Source of the DNA: a bacterium
GTDB taxonomy: Bacteria > T1Sed10-126
Length of the DNA: 8,896 nucleotides
Direction: 5' to 3'
Assembly: GCA_003554945.1 (NCBI GenBank)
Contig: PWHN01000074.1
Coordinates: 1 to 8,896 of the forward strand
Positions 2 through 8,896 of the stretch are shown piece after piece. The notes under the pieces are model-generated. The model was not told where the DNA came from, searched no databases, and saw only the letters and a list, made by a program, of their open reading frames with translations. The position numbers were made by a program, and so were the translations under genes. How positions within the stretch are numbered: the stretch's first letter is position 1; each line of letters starts with the position of its first letter.

Positions 2-115
2 GGGTTGGGAGCTAAGATTATGGACGGAATGAATCTGGACTATGCGTTTGTTCCTTATGGTGATTTTGGGACACAGCACAGGATAGCGTTCAGGTATCAT
101 TTCGGTGGAATCTAA
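2..115 (+). CDS. PorV/UPF0164-family outer-membrane barrel, C-terminal end only
   Basis: This is the last 37 codons and the TAA stop of a gene that enters from the left edge. The tail contains LDYAFVPYGDFG, then a basic/aromatic last strand ending in RYHFGGI. The same block closes the two complete PorV-like proteins in this window (FDYAYVPYGDFG and FDYAFVPYGDFG), so family membership is well supported despite the short piece. In this family these residues form the last strands of an outer-membrane beta-barrel related to FadL and PorV. It lies directly upstream of the giant cargo gene, separated by 78 nt, so it is probably the last gene of an earlier transcription unit or an earlier copy of the cargo/PorV pair. 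Nothing can be said about its N-terminus or full length. Confidence 0.85.
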   Translation, partial: GLGAKIMDGMNLDYAFVPYGDFGTQHRIAFRYHFGGI

Positions 116-193: not shown

Positions 194-3100
194 GTGAATA
201 AACTATTGAATATACTCTTTAGACGGTTATCAAAACACATTTCTTTCCTCCAGCCCCTTCTTCTTATCATTTCTGTGCTGGTTGCTTCATTTTTCCTGGC
301 TTCAAGCCTCGAAGCTCAGACTGTTACAATCACAAGTCCAACAGTCGAGGATTACTATGATACCGTGGCTGAATATGTAACGCTATCGGGAACGGTGGCG
401 GATGCCAATGAGGGAGATTCGGTATCAATTGTATTTGGGCCAGATCGTGATCCCGAACATTATGTGAGAGTGGATGCGGATTCGGAGTGGACATTTTCAG
501 AGATAGAACTTGATTACGATGAGAACGAAGAGATCACAGCAGAGTTAAGGGATGGAGGTGAAGGGGCTGACATACTGGATACGGATGTTTTGACTATCCG
601 TCGTCATAGTTTCGAATTTTACGACGTAATGGATGGAAATTGTCCAGATAGAGATAATTACTTACACAGAATTATACTAGTTTTAGGCGAAGCCAGCCAT
701 TCTGATTCAAGCGATTCAGTGCAGATAACGGTAAATAACCAGGAAACGGTGGATGACGATTCAGATTCAATATTTAGTGACACTGTTACAGTAAATGTTT
801 TTGAACCAGGCATACCGGTAGATCTTCCATCAGATACTCCGGTGGCCAGTGACACTTTTTATTTCAACGCGACCCTGCTTGCTGACGGCGGGCCGGAGGT
901 GCTGGCTGAAAGCGACACGTTTATAGTAAGAAGGGAAAAATCCATAGACGTTACTGACCTGGGGGGAGAAAATATAGTTGCGGGTGAGACTTTAGATGTT
1001 GGCGCAGGTGATCAGAACACGCTAGGTGGGACGGCAGCTTTTTTGACTAATCCTGACGACACGATGGAGATTAGAGTTTACCAGGATAATGAGAGGATAG
1101 ATCGTTATCCCGGACTTGATCCTGAAACTAATTGGGACAAGGACATAGAAATAGTTCCCGGTCTTCAGGAGATTGTAGTGCGATTGTACGAAGGAGATGA
1201 CTGGATTTCTCCTATGCCCGAGACGCCGGTGATTGATGATACGGCATCATTCAATGTTCGCGGTCATGATATTGGCATTGACACCCCCGTTGACGGTGAT
1301 ACGACCGGGGCCCATTCAATTACTGTCGAGGGCCGTTCGGATGGTTCGTTGGAAGGGGAGTACGTGACCATTGTGGTTGAATCTGGCTCTGATTCAGAAA
1401 TCTTTGAAACCCATGTTACCGGTTCCGATGCGAACGATACTTTTGTGACAGATGTTGATTTGTTTCTGGGCTCTGTGGATAATGACGCTGAAAATGTACT
1501 TCAAGCCAGGGTGCACTCAGAAGAAACATTAGATGACAATATAATCGACAAGTCGGATACGGTTGTGATCGAACAATTGGTTGATATAGAATCTGATACC
1601 TTTACACCGGGGAGGAGATTTGAAGCACCGGATACAGTGACAGTTGAAGGGCGAAGTATTGGGGCTAATTCTATAACGGTATATGATCCGGTAGCAGAGG
1701 AGACGATAACCAGGGACACCGCCCCGGTCGATGCGGTCTGGGACACCTGGGTAGTAGAACTTCCAGAATTGGGTATTGGTGAAAATCGGTATGAGCTTAT
1801 ATTACATGAATGCATAGGTGAGGATTCTCGCAGGATAGATGATGACGAATTATTATTTTATGGTTTTGATGTCGGTATTGATTCCCCCCTGGAAACCACG
1901 GCGGGTCTTTCAGACGTCGTTTCAGGGGATTCAACCACTGCTCCAAGAGTCCTGGTGGAAGGCGAGTGGAAGGGAGACATAGGAGGATTCCCCGACCTGC
2001 CGGGAAAAATGACATTACATGTCAGTGGGGTGTTGAGCGGTGAGGCTGATACGCACCTGATCGAGTTAGATTCGTCTGAGCCGGACCTGGTCCAGCCTTA
2101 CGAACGATCAATTCCTCTATACCCTGGTGATACTAACCTCATTACCGCCCGAATTCACGATACGTCCCCGACTTCGCGGATTGTTACCAGGTCGGATACG
2201 TTCGAATTATACCGTCAACGTATTGTAGATATTACTGCTCCCCGGTCGGGACTCGATACCGGGGCCACGCATATCGACGTTGCCGGCACGGCTGCCGGGG
2301 CTAACGTGGTTGGTGACTCCGTTTCCCTGCATCCTCCGGCCGGCACAACTATGTCGGGAACGGTTGCCGCTGACTCAAGCTGGCAAATTCAGGATGTTCC
2401 CCTGGATACCGGGCTCCAGGACTTAAAGGTAGAGTTACATTACGGCGGTACTGGAGAACCTGTCGCAGCTTCAGCCAGCATTGAGGTGCGCCGCCACTCG
2501 ATTTCACTGGATACCCCGGTTTACGACCAAAAAGGAGACCCGGTGGAAAATTATGGCTATACCCAGGCAACCGGGGTTGATCTTTCAGGAACTTCCGCCG
2601 GCTCAGCGGGCGGTGATACCGTGAGTGTCCTGGTGGAGGGGGAAGAATCAGGCGACACGGACATATTTGCGACCGCTGTTACCGGTGATCATGCAGACGG
2701 TGAAGACACATATTCTCTACCGGTTCACCTTTTTGCCGGTGACACCAACGAACTGCGGGTCCGCGTCCACGAAGGGGACTCGACGACCACGGTGGTTGAT
2801 GAAAGTGACAGTTTTGTAGTTCGCCGGGGACCCAAAATTACGTTGTATTTGAAAGAAGACACCGCGGCTTTTAAAACAACCACAATTTCCGGCACCGCCC
2901 CGGGGGCCGCTGACGGGGACTCAGTAGAAGTTATCATAAAGGACACGACAAATGTCGTGATTTCCCAATTTGAGACCTCCGTTACCGGTGAGACCTGGTC
3001 GGTTGATGCTGAATTTACGACCGGACCCCAGGTGGTTCGGGTTGATCTATTTGAGGGTGAGATTGACTGGGACAATCACATTTACAGAGATACTGCGCCT

Positions 3101-4012
3101 GTCAGGGGACATGCTCCGGCCATTGAACCGTCTTTGTACGGTGTGGTTTTTGGTGATGAAATAGTAACTGTGGACCAGTCCGGTGATTCAACTACGGCAA
3201 CAAAGTTGCAGGTTATCGCCCCCGCTCCCGGGTCAGATACGGGACAGCCCGTCTCTGTAGAAGTGGCAGCGACTGAGAAGGGAGATACACGGGAAGTGAT
3301 CAGCGAAGTAAAAACTGGTGGAGACCCGATTATATCGGAAGAGGTTACCCTGTTCAGAGGTGATACAAACACGATAACCGTTAGCATTCTCGATGAAAGC
3401 GGCGAATACGTGGCAGCTTCGGACAGTTTTGTTGTCCGCCAGTGGGACGTAAGTGACACAGTTGAATTCCGGGTAATTGATAAGCGTACATCCGAACTGC
3501 TTGTTGGGGCAACCGTGGAACTGTGGAGCGCTGACTACCCGCGCCGGGCGGATGAAACAGACGAGGATGGAACAGTTGAGTTCGAGCTGCCCAAAGAGAA
3601 CCATCAATATGAAGTTACTCTCGATGGTTTTGCCTCGAAAAGCGGTGAAATTGTTCCCGAAGAAATAGACGAAAAAGTTGTTGAACTGGTGGATGCCCCG
3701 GAGGAAGGGCTCCGGAATTTTGTCGCCGGTCCCAACCCCTACCGTGCTTATGAAGAAGAAAGGGACATACGGTTTCAGTTTGAGCGCACGGCGAGCAGTA
3801 GTTTTGAGCTTGAAATATATACTGTCAGCGGACAGCTTGTCTATGAACAGTCCTATACCTGTGGGAATCTCGGGGAAGCCGGGGACAAGCATTACATTAG
3901 CTGGCCCGGCACAAACAACGAAGGTGACGATGTTGCGCGCGGATATTATTTGTACATTTTTACTGATGATTCTGGTGACGAAAAAACCGGAAGGCTGGCT
4001 ATAATACGATGA
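194..4012 (+). CDS. Giant secreted Ig-like repeat protein with T9SS-type C-terminal sorting domain
   Basis: This protein of about 1272 residues (from GTG 194; GTG 188 would add two) is probably a surface fibre or adhesin-like molecule. A basic N-terminus (KLLNILFRRLSK) and hydrophobic stretch at about residues 20-38 form a signal peptide, likely cut after SLEA at residue 41. Residues 43-1084 are ten degenerate beta-rich repeats of 92-118 residues. A typical repeat opens with I-D-x-x-x-P, has V-x-G-T/R-x-x-G and G-D-S/T-V in the middle, then a G-D-T-N strand, and closes with S-D-T/S-F-x-V-R-R or a variant. Residues 1085-1172 resemble a carboxypeptidase-regulatory/Cna-B stalk. Residues 1173-1272 are a sorting domain opening FVAGPNPY, with LEIYTVSGQLVY and GYYLYIF, ending TGRLAIIR. 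It is very acidic and has few cysteines. The stop overlaps the next PorV-like gene. No catalytic motif is visible, so the ligand or partner is unknown. Confidence 0.9.
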   Translation: MNKLLNILFRRLSKHISFLQPLLLIISVLVASFFLASSLEAQTVTITSPTVEDYYDTVAEYVTLSGTVADANEGDSVSIVFGPDRDPEHYVRVDADSEWTFSEIELDYDENEEITAELRDGGEGADILDTDVLTIRRHSFEFYDVMDGNCPDRDNYLHRIILVLGEASHSDSSDSVQITVNNQETVDDDSDSIFSDTVTVNVFEPGIPVDLPSDTPVASDTFYFNATLLADGGPEVLAESDTFIVRREKSIDVTDLGGENIVAGETLDVGAGDQNTLGGTAAFLTNPDDTMEIRVYQDNERIDRYPGLDPETNWDKDIEIVPGLQEIVVRLYEGDDWISPMPETPVIDDTASFNVRGHDIGIDTPVDGDTTGAHSITVEGRSDGSLEGEYVTIVVESGSDSEIFETHVTGSDANDTFVTDVDLFLGSVDNDAENVLQARVHSEETLDDNIIDKSDTVVIEQLVDIESDTFTPGRRFEAPDTVTVEGRSIGANSITVYDPVAEETITRDTAPVDAVWDTWVVELPELGIGENRYELILHECIGEDSRRIDDDELLFYGFDVGIDSPLETTAGLSDVVSGDSTTAPRVLVEGEWKGDIGGFPDLPGKMTLHVSGVLSGEADTHLIELDSSEPDLVQPYERSIPLYPGDTNLITARIHDTSPTSRIVTRSDTFELYRQRIVDITAPRSGLDTGATHIDVAGTAAGANVVGDSVSLHPPAGTTMSGTVAADSSWQIQDVPLDTGLQDLKVELHYGGTGEPVAASASIEVRRHSISLDTPVYDQKGDPVENYGYTQATGVDLSGTSAGSAGGDTVSVLVEGEESGDTDIFATAVTGDHADGEDTYSLPVHLFAGDTNELRVRVHEGDSTTTVVDESDSFVVRRGPKITLYLKEDTAAFKTTTISGTAPGAADGDSVEVIIKDTTNVVISQFETSVTGETWSVDAEFTTGPQVVRVDLFEGEIDWDNHIYRDTAPVRGHAPAIEPSLYGVVFGDEIVTVDQSGDSTTATKLQVIAPAPGSDTGQPVSVEVAATEKGDTREVISEVKTGGDPIISEEVTLFRGDTNTITVSILDESGEYVAASDSFVVRQWDVSDTVEFRVIDKRTSELLVGATVELWSADYPRRADETDEDGTVEFELPKENHQYEVTLDGFASKSGEIVPEEIDEKVVELVDAPEEGLRNFVAGPNPYRAYEEERDIRFQFERTASSSFELEIYTVSGQLVYEQSYTCGNLGEAGDKHYISWPGTNNEGDDVARGYYLYIFTDDSGDEKTGRLAIIR
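320..3445 (+). repeat. Ten tandem Ig-like protein repeats within the giant cargo
   Basis: Repeat boundaries, in residues counted from GTG 194, are: 43-138, 139-249, 250-358, 359-462, 463-558, 559-676, 677-768, 769-879, 880-973 and 974-1084. They were placed by the recurring end motif (TIRRH, SDTFIVRREK, SFNVRGH, SDTVVIEQL, FYGF, SDTFELYRQR, IEVRRH, SDSFVVRRG, APVRGH, SDSFVVRQW) and the following start motif (such as DIGIDTP, DVGIDSP, IVDITAP, SISLDTP). Units 2, 3 and 5 are the most degenerate; 4, 6, 8 and 10 share the clearest motifs. The repetition is at protein level: no long identical DNA blocks were seen, so the duplications are old. Confidence 0.75.
3710..4009 (+). other. T9SS type A-like C-terminal sorting domain of the giant cargo
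   Basis: The last 100 residues begin FVAGPNPY. They continue with a beta-strand pair around IRFQFER and LEIYTVSGQLVY, an acidic loop, then YISWPGTN, ARGYYLYIF and TGRLAIIR. This is the N-P ... I-Y-x-x-x-G-x-x-V ... W-x-G ... S-G-x-Y-x-Y ... K/R-x-x-x-x-K/R order of T9SS type A C-terminal domains, which also resembles FlgD-type Ig-like folds. Known type A domains direct export and are then removed or recognised at the cell surface. Assignment rests on this motif order and on close similarity to the protease tail at 7298-7618. Confidence 0.75.
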
Positions 4013-5001
4013 CCTTTGAGTTGAAAAGGACGAGGCTGAGGGAAAAAACAACAGTCTTCCTGATACCCCTTGTCCTGCTGTTTTTAGTAGGCACAGGCGC
4101 CAGTAGTCTCTATGCCGGTTCAGCCGGTCAGGCGACTGCCGAAGTTCTGCGTCTTGGAGCAGGAGCCGAGCATCCCGCCATGGGTGGTGCGGGGGTGGCG
4201 TCTGTCAGCGGCGCTCCAGCCCTCCAGTATAACCCCGCCGGGCTTGCTGCCGATTACCGCATGGATGTTGATTTTACCTATCAGCGGATGGTGGAGGATA
4301 TAAACTACGGTAATTTCAATTTTATGAGCGAACTCGGAGCTGATGAGTTCATTGGTCTTGGTCTTGGTTACCTTGACTACGGCAGTGTCGACCGGGTGGA
4401 ATTTTCTGGTGACATTCTGCAGACGAGTGGTTCTTTTACCGGTATGGACCTGGTTGGACAGGCCGGCTATGGCCGCCGCTGGGGAAATATATCGGCCGGA
4501 ATAAATGCCAAGATCATCCGGCTGGAAATAGACGATAACGCCAAGACGGCCCGCGCTGTCGACTTTGGCCTCCTCTGGCGCTCCGGGCGCGAAGAATATC
4601 CCCTCTCTCTCGGTCTGGCTCTGGCAAACCTGGGCTCGAAAGTGCAGGGCGAGGACGACGGTCACGAGGACGAGCTGCCGGCAACGTTTCGCCTCGGTCT
4701 GAGTTATGATATACCGCAAGTTCTGGGCAACAACTTTCGGGTAGACCTTGACATGGAAAACCAACTCGAATCGGGCGAAATAGGGTTCCTGGGTGGAATA
4801 CAGTGGAATCCTATTGAACGGCTGGCACTACGGACCGGTTACGACGATAATCTTGACGTTGACGGTGGTCTTACTGCGGGGGCGGGCTTTGAATTTGCCG
4901 AGGGAATGAAATTTGACTACGCTTACGTACCTTACGGTGATTTTGGTAATCTACACCGGTTCTCGTTCGGTTTTAGCCTGGGGGCGAATGACAATGAATA
5001 G
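4009..5001 (+). CDS. PorV/UPF0164-family outer-membrane beta-barrel, copy 1
   Basis: This 330-residue predicted outer-membrane barrel belongs to the family of the T9SS shuttle protein PorV. Residues 1-36 are a signal peptide: basic start KRTRLREK, hydrophobic VFLIPLVLLFLV, likely cut after SLYA. The mature N-terminus shows the family signature: AEVLRLGAG, MGGAGVAS, then QYNPAGL with NPAGL at residues 75-79. Later come GSFTGMDLVGQAGYGRR, IRLEIDDNA, LALANLGSKV, and the closing FDYAYVPYGDFG at 302-313 with final strand FSFGFSLG. Length is slightly below typical PorV. ATG 4009 overlaps the cargo stop as ATGA, and GGAAGG lies 14 nt upstream (3989-3994), so coupled translation is likely. In known systems PorV binds cargo C-terminal domains, so this copy may serve the upstream repeat protein; that link is inferred. 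A fatty-acid or general porin role, as for FadL relatives, is the main alternative. Confidence 0.88.
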   Translation: MTFELKRTRLREKTTVFLIPLVLLFLVGTGASSLYAGSAGQATAEVLRLGAGAEHPAMGGAGVASVSGAPALQYNPAGLAADYRMDVDFTYQRMVEDINYGNFNFMSELGADEFIGLGLGYLDYGSVDRVEFSGDILQTSGSFTGMDLVGQAGYGRRWGNISAGINAKIIRLEIDDNAKTARAVDFGLLWRSGREEYPLSLGLALANLGSKVQGEDDGHEDELPATFRLGLSYDIPQVLGNNFRVDLDMENQLESGEIGFLGGIQWNPIERLALRTGYDDNLDVDGGLTAGAGFEFAEGMKFDYAYVPYGDFGNLHRFSFGFSLGANDNE

Positions 5002-7621
5002 GATTTTTAAATTTACTATTCCCCTGGTTCTCTTCCTGTTTATTCCGGGACTGTTGGTTATCGCCCCCGGTTTTATCCTGGGCGATAGCGGAATTGTACC
5101 CGAACTGACAAATACAACCCGGCAGGAACTTGAAACCGATGCCGCCGCCGGCGCTGCTCGAATCATTGCCAGCCTCAACGTTGACTTTACTCCCGAGGGG
5201 GAGTTAAGTGAAACCGCGAAAGAGGATCAGCGCCAGGCTATCAATCAAAAGCAGGAGACGGTTCTGGGCCAATTGGACGGCACGGATTACGTGAAGACGG
5301 CCCGGATGAAAACGGTCCCCCAATTAGGTCTTATACTGGGACCGGAAGCGCTGGATGAAATACTGCAAATGACGGAAGTGAAGTCAATTTCTAAACAGCG
5401 TCCCCTCGAGCCTCTGCTTGAGGAAAGCGTACCTTTTATCCAGGGAACGCAACTGCAGCAGATGGGAATTGATGGCACGGACCAGGTCGTGGCCGTGCTC
5501 GATACCGGGATCGATCCCGACCACCCCGCGTTCAGTTTTATGGATATTGATGATCGTATTGTTGCTGAGGCTTGTTTTTCGTCGGGGCAAACCCCCGAGT
5601 CGGTCGGGGATGTGGAACCCGAACCAGATAAGCGGTTGTGGGAAGGAGACTGTCCTGATGGAACTGGCCGGCAGATCGGTCCCGGGAGTGGAGTGCCGCT
5701 GGAGGTTCTTAATAGAATGGGAGATTTAGAACCGGCCGACCATGGGACTCATGTCGGTGGAATAGCGGGGGGGAGCAGAGTTAATGACCTGAATTTAGCT
5801 CGAGGCGTAGCACCGCGGGCCTCAATAATGTCGATTAATGTCTTTTTTAAATATAGGGATCCACATCCACTTACTCCACCGGAACAACCTTTGAGCTGGC
5901 CCGATGACATGGTCAAAGCATTGGAGCATGTTTTAGAGAAATCGGCCGAGCTTGATATCGCTGCCGTTAACATGAGTCTTGGTGGAGGAGAATTTAATGA
6001 ACCCTGTCCCGAAGAACCTCAGCAAGAAGTCATTAAAAACCTGAAAAGCGAGGGCATAGCCACAATCATTGCCAGTGGGAACAACAATTGGGTAGAAGCA
6101 GTGGCTTCTCCAGCCTGTATTCCGGAGGCGATAGCAGTGGGGGCTACTGGTATTGAGGAAGAAGACGAATACATCGCTGATTTTTCCAACCAGCACCCTG
6201 AGATGGTTGATTTGGTTGCACCCGGTGCAAATATCCGGGCGGCGGCGCTTGATTTTGACTCAATCCGGGACGTAGTAGAACACGTGGGAGAATCTAAAAG
6301 CGGTACCTCGATGGCCGCGCCACACGTTGCTGGGGCATGGGCGCTCCTGCAATCGGCAACCGGAGAGCAACTGACAGTTGATGAGATAGAACAAACGCTG
6401 ATTGAGACGGGGGCTACTGTCCGTGATGAGCGTGAGGATGTCCTGGGCAGACCCTTCAACGAATATTCCAGTATACGGATAATGGAAGCTCTCGATGAGC
6501 TGGGCAAGACCAAAGTAGTTTTTGAAGTTGAAGAGGAAGGCCCGGACGCCCCCCGACCGGCAGCTGAAGCGCTGGTCGAAGTAAACGGCACTCGGGGTCG
6601 CACTAACGAACAGGGACGTGCCACCATTTTTCCGGAACGTACCGGTGGTCCCTACAAATGGAGCGTTAGCAAATTTGGCTATAAGACAGACACCGGGATT
6701 ATTGAGTCACTGGCCGAAGAACGACGGATTGAACCGGACGTGCTTGAGGAAAGCAAAACTGATCTAACTTTCAGGCTTGAGGATGATGAGGGGAACATAA
6801 TAGATAATCCGGATGATGGCTGGGTTTTTGTGGGCAACGAGGCTGAATCTGCGGATGACCAGGGCGTTGTAACTTTTTCTGACGTTCAAACCAGAAATCA
6901 TCGCTATGTGGCCGTTCATGACGACTACTGGTATAAGCAGGGCTGGATTGACGTGGGGGCGGAAACGCAGGTGATTAAGCTGTCCGTCCCCGACACGAAT
7001 AGTGTGGAGATAGAAGTGGCCGATCCGGCCGGTAATCCGGTTGAAGGGGCACGGGTAGAACTGCGACATAATATTCCTGATTTTCCCGTCTTTGATTATG
7101 TGGAAGAAGAAGAAACTGATTCAGACGGTATCGCTGAGTTTGATGAAGTTGAAGCGGCAGAGTGGCTGGTTAACGTATCAAAAAGCGGCTACGACCGGGT
7201 TCAAACCACGAAAACTCTGCAGCAGGAAGGCCTGAGTAGTATAGATCCTACTGTTGCTGATGAGTTGAGCTACAGTTTTGTATTATCCGTGGATGGTATA
7301 AAAGATTTTCTCGCCGGCCCAAATCCGTTTGATTTTTCTAATTCCAAACATACTGAGCCGGAAAAAAGATTTATCTTTCAGTTTACGGACCCCGGTAAAA
7401 TTAACATGGAACTTGAAATTTACAGTTTAAGCGGAGAACTGGTATATGATTGTAATATTACTGAAGCTGATGATACTGTTGATAATGATAATAAAGCACA
7501 GATATACTGGGATTTAGAAGACAACAGCGGCAGTGAAGTATCCAGTGGCTACTATCTCTACCGGCTGAAGGATCATTCCAGCGGCGACGAAGAGACCGGC
7601 AAGCTGGCTGTGATAAAATGA
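4994..7621 (+). CDS. Secreted subtilisin-family (S8) serine protease with T9SS-type sorting domain
   Basis: This 875-residue exported endopeptidase has N-terminal MNRIFKF plus a long hydrophobic segment (about 8-30) as signal peptide. Residues 54-138 look like an I9-type propeptide. The catalytic domain (about 155-490) has a complete triad and oxyanion site: Asp170 in VAVLDTGID, His250 in DHGTHVGG, Asn363 in ASGNNNW and Ser439 in GTSMAAPHVAGAW. The Asp-His gap is 80 residues against about 32 in subtilisin BPN'. That insert has Cys194 and Cys220; Cys338 and Cys375 follow, so disulfides are possible. Three carboxypeptidase-regulatory-like stalk domains span about 505-587, 588-668 and 669-768, then a sorting domain at 769-875. 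ATG 4994 was chosen because GGGGG at 4980-4984 is 9 nt away; ATG 4988 is the alternative. Overlap with the preceding PorV-like gene is 8 nt. The substrate is unknown; the neighbouring repeat protein is one candidate. Confidence 0.95.
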   Translation: MNRIFKFTIPLVLFLFIPGLLVIAPGFILGDSGIVPELTNTTRQELETDAAAGAARIIASLNVDFTPEGELSETAKEDQRQAINQKQETVLGQLDGTDYVKTARMKTVPQLGLILGPEALDEILQMTEVKSISKQRPLEPLLEESVPFIQGTQLQQMGIDGTDQVVAVLDTGIDPDHPAFSFMDIDDRIVAEACFSSGQTPESVGDVEPEPDKRLWEGDCPDGTGRQIGPGSGVPLEVLNRMGDLEPADHGTHVGGIAGGSRVNDLNLARGVAPRASIMSINVFFKYRDPHPLTPPEQPLSWPDDMVKALEHVLEKSAELDIAAVNMSLGGGEFNEPCPEEPQQEVIKNLKSEGIATIIASGNNNWVEAVASPACIPEAIAVGATGIEEEDEYIADFSNQHPEMVDLVAPGANIRAAALDFDSIRDVVEHVGESKSGTSMAAPHVAGAWALLQSATGEQLTVDEIEQTLIETGATVRDEREDVLGRPFNEYSSIRIMEALDELGKTKVVFEVEEEGPDAPRPAAEALVEVNGTRGRTNEQGRATIFPERTGGPYKWSVSKFGYKTDTGIIESLAEERRIEPDVLEESKTDLTFRLEDDEGNIIDNPDDGWVFVGNEAESADDQGVVTFSDVQTRNHRYVAVHDDYWYKQGWIDVGAETQVIKLSVPDTNSVEIEVADPAGNPVEGARVELRHNIPDFPVFDYVEEEETDSDGIAEFDEVEAAEWLVNVSKSGYDRVQTTKTLQQEGLSSIDPTVADELSYSFVLSVDGIKDFLAGPNPFDFSNSKHTEPEKRFIFQFTDPGKINMELEIYSLSGELVYDCNITEADDTVDNDNKAQIYWDLEDNSGSEVSSGYYLYRLKDHSSGDEETGKLAVIK
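7298..7618 (+). other. T9SS type A-like C-terminal sorting domain of the protease
   Basis: Residues 769-875 of the protease open with FLAGPNPF, then FIFQFTD, LEIYSLSGELVYD, an acidic insert, IYWDLEDNSG, SGYYLYRL and a terminal TGKLAVIK. It aligns by eye with the tail of the giant cargo (shared AGPNP, LEIY, SG-LVY, GYYLY, DEKTGRLAIIR versus DEETGKLAVIK). The central loop is several residues longer here and holds a cysteine in VYDCNIT. Both cargo genes thus end in the same recognition module immediately before a PorV-like gene. Confidence 0.78.
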
Positions 7622-8601
7622 TTTTGAAAATCTTTTCATTGCAAGGTTACTTACGGCGCCCGTGGCTTCTGCTTTTGAGTTTATGCTTTGTCCTCCAGTT
7701 CTTCGCTGTCCCCGCTGTCGACGGTGGCGGCGGGCAGTCGGCCGCCGAAGTCCTGCGGTTGAAGACGGGGGCGCGGGAAGCGGCCCTGGGTTCAGCCGGA
7801 CAGGCTACCGCCCGGGGGGCTAAGGCCATTGATTATAATCCCGCCGGGTTACTGCCCGGAGAAGGTAGTGAATTTGAACTGGGGTATACCAGCTTGGTCG
7901 AGGATATTGACTTTGGTAGCTTCACCTATACACACTCGCCTGATTTTGTTGGTAACCAGTCTGCTCTTGGCTGGGGGGTTAATTACATAAGCTATGGCGA
8001 CGAGCAGAGGACTGATGTTAGGGACGGCAAGTTGTATACAGACGGTGATTTTACCGGGCTTGACCTCGTGGGTAGCGCCGGTTACGGACGGCAGATAAAC
8101 GAGAATACGAGCCTTGGTTTTGCACTTCGCGGAATACGTCTGGAAATAGACGACAGCACCGCGCAGGCCGCTTCTCTTGACCTCGGACTGCGCTGGGCAT
8201 CCAACCAACCTGATCTGCCGCTCGCCTTCGGTTTCGTCATCGCTAACCTGGGCACCGAGGTGGAGTTTGAGGACGAGGGCGACGATCTGCCGCTGCTTGC
8301 CCGTGGCGGGCTGAGTTATGCTCTCCGTGAAAACGCAGCTTTTCCTGTTGAATTATATCTTGATACCGAGTATCAGATTGAAAATAGCCGGGCCAGCTTG
8401 ATGCTCGGCACGGAAATTCAGTTGTACAATGATTTAGATTTCCGATTGGGTTATAACAGTAACCGGGAGATTGACGACGGGATGAGCGTTGGTCTTGGAC
8501 TGAATTTTGTTGATAACCTTGAATTTGACTACGCATTTGTGCCTTACGGCGATTTTGGCGACCTGCACCAACTGGGTTTTCGGTACAGCTTTGGGGAATG
8601 A
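7618..8601 (+). CDS. PorV/UPF0164-family outer-membrane beta-barrel, copy 2
   Basis: This is a 327-residue paralogue of the PorV-like protein at 4009-5001. A basic start (LRRP) and hydrophobic WLLLLSLCFVLQFFAV form the signal peptide, probably cut near AVDG at about residue 36. The mature part has AAEVLRLKTGAREAALGSAG, DYNPAGLL (NPAGL at 74-78), LVEDIDFGSF, GDFTGLDLVGSAGYGRQ, IRLEIDDST, FVIANLGTEV, LSYAL and the closing FDYAFVPYGDFG (303-314) with RYSFGE at the end. Blocks line up with copy 1 along the whole length but identity is partial, pointing to an old duplication. ATG 7618 overlaps the protease stop as ATGA, with no strong Shine-Dalgarno seen, so it probably depends on coupling to protease translation. 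By analogy it could be the PorV partner of the protease. It is the last gene seen in the operon. Confidence 0.88.
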   Translation: MILKIFSLQGYLRRPWLLLLSLCFVLQFFAVPAVDGGGGQSAAEVLRLKTGAREAALGSAGQATARGAKAIDYNPAGLLPGEGSEFELGYTSLVEDIDFGSFTYTHSPDFVGNQSALGWGVNYISYGDEQRTDVRDGKLYTDGDFTGLDLVGSAGYGRQINENTSLGFALRGIRLEIDDSTAQAASLDLGLRWASNQPDLPLAFGFVIANLGTEVEFEDEGDDLPLLARGGLSYALRENAAFPVELYLDTEYQIENSRASLMLGTEIQLYNDLDFRLGYNSNREIDDGMSVGLGLNFVDNLEFDYAFVPYGDFGDLHQLGFRYSFGE

Positions 8602-8643
8602 TTTGCGATAAGCGAGCTCGAGAGTAGTTCTTTACATCTTTTA

Positions 8644-8682
8644 GCACGCAGATTACACAGATTTACACAGATTTAATTCAAG
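8644..8682. repeat. CAGATT-rich dispersed repeat, copy A (39 bp)
   Basis: The unit starts GCACGCAGATTAC and ends TTCAAG. Inside it consists of three ACRCAGATT-like subunits in tandem with roughly 10-bp spacing. It matches copy B at 8733-8771 at 32 of 39 positions without gaps, counted by eye. The sequence is non-coding and of the type dispersed between genes in many environmental genomes. Confidence 0.8.
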
Positions 8683-8690
8683 CCCGGAAA

Positions 8691-8714
8691 CGCAAAGGCG
8701 CGAAGGCGCTAAGA
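8691..8714. repeat. Short tandem octamer array between the two 39-bp repeats
   Basis: Three consecutive octamers, CGCAAAGG, CGCGAAGG and CGCTAAGA, form a degenerate tandem array. It is followed by AAAATTCAAG (8714-8723), which resembles the AATTCAAG and AGTTCAAG ends of the flanking 39-bp copies. The TTCAAG end therefore recurs three times in the block, as if separate repeat modules share one boundary. Confidence 0.7.
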
Positions 8715-8732
8715 AAATTCAAGTGCGAAGGG

Positions 8733-8771
8733 GCACGCAGATTACGCAGGTAGACGCAGATTAAGTTCAAG
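8733..8771. repeat. CAGATT-rich dispersed repeat, copy B (39 bp)
   Basis: This is a direct repeat of copy A in the same orientation, with 50 bp between the copies. The seven differences lie mainly at A/G positions inside the subunits (ACACAG versus ACGCAG). The first 13 bases and the final TTCAAG are identical to copy A. Confidence 0.8.
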
Positions 8772-8788
8772 GGCGGGGTTGGGCGGCG

Positions 8789-8821
8789 GGAGCCGGCTTG
8801 CAGCCGGATTTAACTGGCTCC
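8789..8821. other. GC-rich nested hairpin
   Basis: CCGGCT (8793-8798) and AGCCGG (8802-8807) form a perfect 6-bp stem with a TGC loop. An alternative outer pairing joins GGAGCC (8789-8794) with GGCTCC (8816-8821); the two stems share bases 8793-8794, so they cannot both form fully. No T-run follows on either strand in the position needed for an intrinsic terminator. It may be another dispersed palindromic element. Confidence 0.45.
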
Positions 8822-8896
8822 TGTCCGTAAAAAAATATATACATAACCCGCCTATACATTTTTTCACTCCCAGTCACCAGCACGGAAGTGCAGGCA

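Follow-up and report, generated by a model that had tools for sequence, protein, structure and literature searches.

The stretch of DNA analysed here (the window) is one whole contig of 8,896 bp from a 2.2-Mb genome assembled in 121 contigs and estimated to be 93.5% complete. All its genes lie on the + strand, in the order barrel tail, cargo 1, barrel 1, cargo 2 and barrel 2, followed by about 295 non-coding bases. The features are as follows:

2..115, + strand: C-terminal tail of a third PorV/PorQ-family barrel, cut off by the contig start
188..4012, + strand: cargo 1, 1274 aa, with its GTG start at 188 or 194
3680..4012, + strand: C-terminal sorting domain (CTD) of cargo 1, from alignments and an AlphaFold model
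4009..5001, + strand: barrel 1, a PorV/PorQ-family outer-membrane protein of 330 aa (NF033709)
about 4988..7621, + strand: cargo 2, a subtilase (S8), from its Peptidase_S8 match
7289..7621, + strand: CTD of cargo 2, with 42% identity to the CTD of cargo 1
7618..8601, + strand: barrel 2, a PorV/PorQ-family outer-membrane protein of 327 aa (NF033709)

Each cargo gene runs into the barrel gene behind it through an exact ATGA overlap (4009-4012 and 7618-7621), and the 3' end of barrel 1 also overlaps the start of cargo 2. That start was placed from the signal peptide and the overlap; the listed open reading frame opens at TTG 4913 and the signal peptide begins at ATG 4988/4994. The barrel tail at 2-115, overlooked in the first-pass annotation, emerged from the search with barrel 1 (51% identity to P0002 residues 291-325, E 7e-7), and the motif DYAFVPYGDFG..HR is readable in it. 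The non-coding 3' end (8602-8896) contains degenerate short repeats (acgcagattacacagattt...) and looks like spacers elsewhere in the genome. The window has no Rfam match and no more promoter-like sites than expected by chance, and a plasmid collection searched with barrel 1 gave no match.

Sorting domains and barrels of the window

Both cargos end in the same FlgD/Ig-type sorting domain. This part of the first-pass annotation, which saw two otherwise unrelated exported proteins sharing one type of CTD, was confirmed: the two domains are 42-43% identical (E 1e-24), and these last ~110 residues are the only part that the cargos have in common. Cargo 1 has an N-terminal hydrophobic signal, beta-sandwich/Ig-like repeats and, near its end, a carboxypeptidase-regulatory-like domain (CarboxypepD_reg at 1092-1156, 23 bits, under the cut-off); its passenger has a relative on contig C23, the Ig-repeat cargo there. 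Cargo 2 matches Peptidase_S8 with 122 bits and carries two carboxypeptidase-regulatory-like domains (CarboxypepD_reg, 40.9 bits). The motifs of the first CTD are PNPY ... ELEIYTVSGQLVY ... GYYLYIF ... TGRLAIIR and those of the second PNPF ... GYYLYRLKDHSSGDEETGKLAVIK. Taken singly, both window CTDs stay under the curated cut-offs of CHU_C (PF13585), FlgD_ig (PF13860) and TIGR04183, the CHU_C scores being 22.7 and 13.5 bits against a cut-off of 27. A profile built from these CTDs and their relatives matches PorZ (E 5e-14) and PorU (E 1e-8), as well as the CTDs in translocon structures 8glj/8glk. Moreover, the AlphaFold model of the cargo 1 CTD is a beta-sandwich (pLDDT 89.5), and its best Foldseek matches are the CTDs of PorZ (5m11) and PorU (6za2).

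The barrel behind each cargo had been described as ATGA-overlapping and of PorV/UPF0164 type. The overlap and the PorV relationship hold, and the UPF0164 label (PF03687) was abandoned: the window barrels do not match this Pfam model, although they share the FadL-like outer-membrane superfamily with it, and its best score in the genome, on contig C20, is 19.2 bits against a cut-off of 21.4. It was replaced by NF033709, the NCBIfam PorV/PorQ family, which barrels 1 and 2 match with 165.8 and 144.9 bits (cut-off 90) and whose cut-off is passed by 7/8 of the other CTD-linked barrels of the genome. Barrel 2 is 41% identical to barrel 1. With a profile of the CTD-linked barrels, the solved PorV of F. 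johnsoniae is found at E 6e-40 and the next match, the FadL-like TodX, at 7e-8. Similarly, the top fold matches of the barrel 1 AlphaFold model (pLDDT 85.4, 14 strands) are F. johnsoniae PorV in translocon structures 8gl6_F/6h3i_F (E 1e-16 and 1e-14), compared with 2e-8 for FadL/TodX. The PorQ score exceeds the PorV score in 9/10 CTD-linked barrels of the genome, all of them below the PorQ equivalog cut-off (220 bits). Against the PorP family (TIGR03519, cut-off 90.55), barrel 1 reaches 13.3 bits and barrel 2 has no match. With CHU_C and PorP scores both under cut-off, membership of the group formed by type B CTDs (TIGR04131, PF13585) and PorP/SprF barrels was rejected; the window pairs may work like such pairs without being members.

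Some PorV-family barrels bear C-terminal TPR extensions that are expected to be periplasmic (L019 6295-7632, L022 9718-10980, L026 875-2521), and one has a proline/glutamate-rich linker. The barrel of locus L024 has a charged W-rich tail, and the genes flanking it look helix-hairpin-helix/ComEA-like.

Gene order in two genomes and across phyla

The search with barrel 1 returned 11 PorV-family genes in the source genome (one of them matched in two pieces), namely the window tail and ten complete ones. Each of the complete, clear members (10/10) directly follows a CTD gene on its own strand, the pairs being located on contigs C118 (two), C6 (two), C23, C45, C102, C79, C20 and C108. A further, divergent member lies on C102, two genes downstream of a pair. 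From the other side, the CTD profile finds 12 CTD genes, 10 of which directly precede a barrel; on C108 a CTD gene and a second CTD gene are followed by a single barrel, and a weak CTD match on C36 (33 bits) has no barrel. The CTD cargos of this genome comprise two subtilases, Ig-repeat giants, a GLUG/LRR protein and unknowns. One cluster on C102 (L022, G000:C102:79000-97803; 3181-12549, - strand) consists of a CTD cargo, a PorV-family barrel with a TPR tail and a DUF559 gene, and continues with a second, divergent PorV-family barrel, ExbB, ExbD, TonB and a 908-aa TPR protein. Judging from this neighbourhood, ExbB/ExbD/TonB might be an alternative energiser.

The search for the phylum gave two genomes only, so the host does not belong to Bacteroidota. 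The other genome returned (the sister genome) belongs to the same family and to another genus; evidence from within the phylum thus comes from one incomplete genome and one relative, and the remaining relatives are MAG-based. The sister genome has 43 CTD matches, compared with the 12 CTD genes above. In the 20 stretches of it that were read, 6/6 barrels are preceded by a CTD gene, and a barrel lies directly downstream of 6/27 CTD genes and of none of the other 21/27, so adjacency is not required for CTD use. Several giant CTD proteins (2,000-3,300 aa) stand there in tandem without barrels. The idea of a strict one-cargo-one-shuttle system finds no support as a general rule, given these 6/27 paired CTD genes and the two CTD genes with one barrel on C108.

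Named genomes were scanned as well and yielded 77 loci, among other lineages in Elusimicrobia/Endomicrobia, Aerophobetes, Desantisbacteria, Lindowbacteria, Firestonebacteria and Hydrogenedentes, and also in Poribacteria, WOR-3, Calditrichota, Goldiibacteriota and FCPU426. Among these named relatives, a CTD gene occupies position -1 of the barrel in 44/83 cases and other positions in 19/701 (odds ratio 40, p 6.6e-34), with position +1 at 6%. Barrels are thus not found equally often beside genes lacking the CTD, and the observation that PorV paralogues adjoin CTD cargos extends from the source genome to other phyla. Spacing is tight, 42/60 pairs being at most 30 bp apart and 14/60 having a 4-bp overlap, and the CTD-then-barrel order is kept across phyla at 28-30% barrel identity. 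The cargo-barrel gene pattern is old and widespread. Barrels without a preceding CTD gene exist as well, such as a conserved solitary one in Endomicrobia (L041, L044-L048, L050, L058, L063), which has a conserved neighbourhood and is followed by genes of ~187 and ~412 aa; this solitary gene is possibly a general PorV.

Translocon, sortase and motor

SprA/Sov homologues support the proposed T9SS variant in a lineage where this system has received little study: they occur in the source genome (as a fragment), in the sister genome and in most other lineages sampled. In the source genome, searches with PF14349 and an SprA profile gave no match until the sister SprA was used as query, which recovered an N-terminal fragment on contig C25 (G000:C25, L215, 3-359, - strand) cut by the contig end; loss of SprA, or SprA-independent export, was consequently dropped as an explanation. 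The fragment is 52% identical to the sister SprA, itself split over two contigs (C23 and C86), and the remainder of the gene is absent from the assembly. Of 23 genomes searched, most gave SprA homologues; their profile matches SprA 6h3i with E 1.5e-94, and the relatives also match TIGR04189. SprA/Sov-like proteins of about 1,700-2,200 aa occur in Elusimicrobia, Desantisbacteria and other non-Bacteroidota (L163, L158-L162, L205-L213), with comF-like and lptF/lptG-like genes beside them in several relatives.

Among the features by which a T9SS is recognised, the genome has cargos with an Ig-like C-terminal sorting domain (fold and profile), PorV/PorQ-family outer-membrane barrels (NF033709 and PorV fold) and an SprA/Sov translocon (the N-terminal fragment). 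A PorU sortase was not found: the PorU model matched only CTDs, and the C25 peptidase of PorU (PF01364) is present in 8/13 genomes and was detected neither here nor in the sister genome. The gene could lie in the ~6% of the genome that is unassembled, yet the sister is also without it. PorU is considered a module of many species that stands outside the minimal T9SS core (PMC10202324). Genomes without the C25 peptidase have fewer CTDs (p 0.003; per Mb p 0.045), but these genomes are few, incomplete and not independent, and the comparison is not used as support. TIGR03517 (GldM/PorM) matched in 0/13 genomes, in a search run without a T9SS-positive control.

Co-divergence and possible roles of the barrels

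The distances between CTDs and those between barrels are correlated over the ten pairs of the source genome (Mantel r 0.64, p 6e-4), in the sister genome (r 0.76, p 0.007), in both genomes together (0.88) and over 44 named pairs (0.68). Tree groups agree accordingly: the barrels of L022 and L024 group together as their CTDs do, and the same holds for the L019 (3955) and L023 pair and for the window class. Two passenger swaps were found. The subtilase of the window is a homologue of the one on C45 (36% over 453 aa), and two cargos on C6 are likewise homologous (36% over 185 aa); in both cases the CTDs and the barrels belong to different classes, each barrel resembling those of cargos with the same CTD class. 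Therefore the barrel goes with the CTD and not with the passenger. The swaps fit recognition between the two proteins, but they also fit physical copying of an adjacent CTD-barrel cassette. When the extracellular loops were placed by analogy with the PorV topology, loop distances in the ten pairs correlated with CTD distances at a raw r of 0.69, compared with 0.36 for the periplasmic loops; a register-shift control was not significant, 5-13% of the shifts scoring at least as high (0.05-0.13). Co-variation of the extracellular loops with the CTD is thus suggestive. Taken together, co-divergence and swaps lend indirect support to the partner specificity suggested in the first-pass annotation, and not to its strict one-to-one form; that interpretation was right in outline and overstated in this respect.

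Cognate cargo-shuttle logic is already known for type B CTDs, whose matching PorP/SprF shuttles are encoded behind the cargo (PMC12618676). The F. johnsoniae type B pairs (SprB/SprF and others; PMC12618676) resemble the window pairs in having the shuttle gene directly downstream of the cargo, several pairs per genome, a preference for the cognate partner that allows some sharing, orphan cargos that share a shuttle, and the cell surface as final location. Unlike them, the window barrels are of the PorV/PorQ family (FadL fold), the CTDs are type-A-like (PorZ/PorU/RemZ) and the host is not a member of Bacteroidota; the specificity of the window pairs is putative. With the PorV/type A system of Bacteroidota, in which PorV loops catch the CTD inside SprA and PorV then exits sideways with it (PMC10994853), the locus shares the fold and profile of the barrel, the SprA translocon, and an Ig-like CTD with PNP, GxYxY and C-terminal K/R motifs. 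Here, in contrast, there are about ten cargo-linked barrels instead of one PorV, and no PorU-type peptidase was found. The PorZ CTD stays attached to PorQ, and a protective role of cognate PorV-like barrels has been proposed (review PMC10202324). This system is close in that 9/10 barrels of the genome are nearer PorQ and the closest solved CTD is that of PorZ, and a retained CTD would explain 1:1 co-expression; the cargos are unrelated to PorZ outside the CTD, and CTD retention would be, in our case, a prediction.

We consider the best explanation, at a probability of about 0.6, to be a set of T9SS-like tandem cargo-barrel cassettes outside Bacteroidota, in which the barrels are class-level cognate carriers and possibly also anchors. 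It builds on the observed gene order, families, folds, SprA fragment, co-divergence and correspondence of barrel class with CTD class, and from these we infer a physical pairing, an export route, anchoring and a 1:1 amount. Each cargo, which has a signal peptide, would be exported by Sec; in the lumen of the SprA/Sov-type translocon, a PorV/PorQ-family barrel would then capture the cargo's type-A-like Ig CTD with its extracellular loops. The barrel would leave the translocon sideways with the cargo attached, so that each barrel pulls out of SprA the cargo encoded upstream of it, or others of that CTD class. Recognition would operate at the level of the CTD class with some sharing, and not strictly as one barrel per cargo; indeed, sharing within a class is suggested by the orphan CTDs of the sister genome. 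Translated together with its cargo, the barrel would be a matched carrier in an amount of about 1:1. As the searches revealed no peptidase of PorU type, the CTD probably stays on the cargo, and the barrel may double as a lasting surface anchor, as PorQ does for the retained PorZ CTD. The overlap of the genes would then make sense, since a carrier that is spent and not recycled has to be made in about the same amount as its cargo.

Co-divergence could, however, also arise from copying of the CTD end together with the barrel gene, and it is possible, if on the unlikely side, that the linkage carries no specificity and that the cargo 3' end with its barrel gene is a recombination or duplication cassette. 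The CTD end and the barrel are indeed contiguous over about 1.3 kb, and passengers have been shuffled with CTD and barrel kept together; linkage alone nevertheless fails to explain a CTD-then-barrel order that persists across phyla at such low barrel identity, and the signal in the extracellular loops, weak as it is, speaks for contact. Ordinary T9SS-like secretion with an interchangeable pool of PorV paralogues, in which any barrel of the genome would serve any type-A-like CTD like the single Flavobacterium PorV and the operon would couple cargo and carrier amounts only, appears unlikely to us. In its favour, a single PorV handles every type A CTD in F. johnsoniae, and CTDs show little conservation on the surface turned towards the translocon (PMC12618676, PMC10994853); many CTDs of the sister genome, moreover, are unpaired, and few barrels were found there. 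Against such a pool, several barrel classes per genome track the CTD classes even across passenger exchange, and if the shuttle were recycled, keeping about ten barrels for twelve cargos would be a waste. That the barrels might be FadL-like substrate channels unrelated to secretion, adjacent to the cargos by an envelope-operon coincidence, is very improbable. PorV itself has the FadL fold, and barrel 2 and the C102 barrel give weak Toluene_X/FadL matches, but PorV is far ahead of FadL/TodX in both profile (6e-40 vs 7e-8) and fold (1e-16 vs 2e-8), the adjacent gene codes specifically for a CTD protein (odds ratio 40) and SprA is present.

The cognate-carrier reading can be carried further, to a sortase-less type-IX-like export in many non-Bacteroidota phyla, with class-specific barrels as permanent anchors, a CTD-barrel cassette that moves to new passengers and a non-PorLM motor (e.g. 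of ExbBD type). We put this forward tentatively and would sooner doubt it than rely on it.

Published accounts confine the T9SS to Bacteroidota or the FCB superphylum and describe one PorV for all type A cargos. The present host and its relatives lie outside Bacteroidota, and what is new is the combination of the PorV/PorQ family with a type-A-like CTD, the multiplicity of barrels, the apparent absence of PorU and the occurrence in other phyla than Bacteroidota. No report on PorV-linked type A CTDs or on T9SS in Elusimicrobia was found in the literature searched, most subscription journals being outside its scope. To conclude, several candidate phyla possess a core set of SprA, a PorV-type barrel and an Ig-like CTD, and the carrier has multiplied and become linked to its cargo. 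Cognate and non-cognate pairs occur naturally among these loci and bear on how a barrel reads a CTD, on whether the carrier is recycled or spent, and on the age of the translocon relative to motor and sortase.
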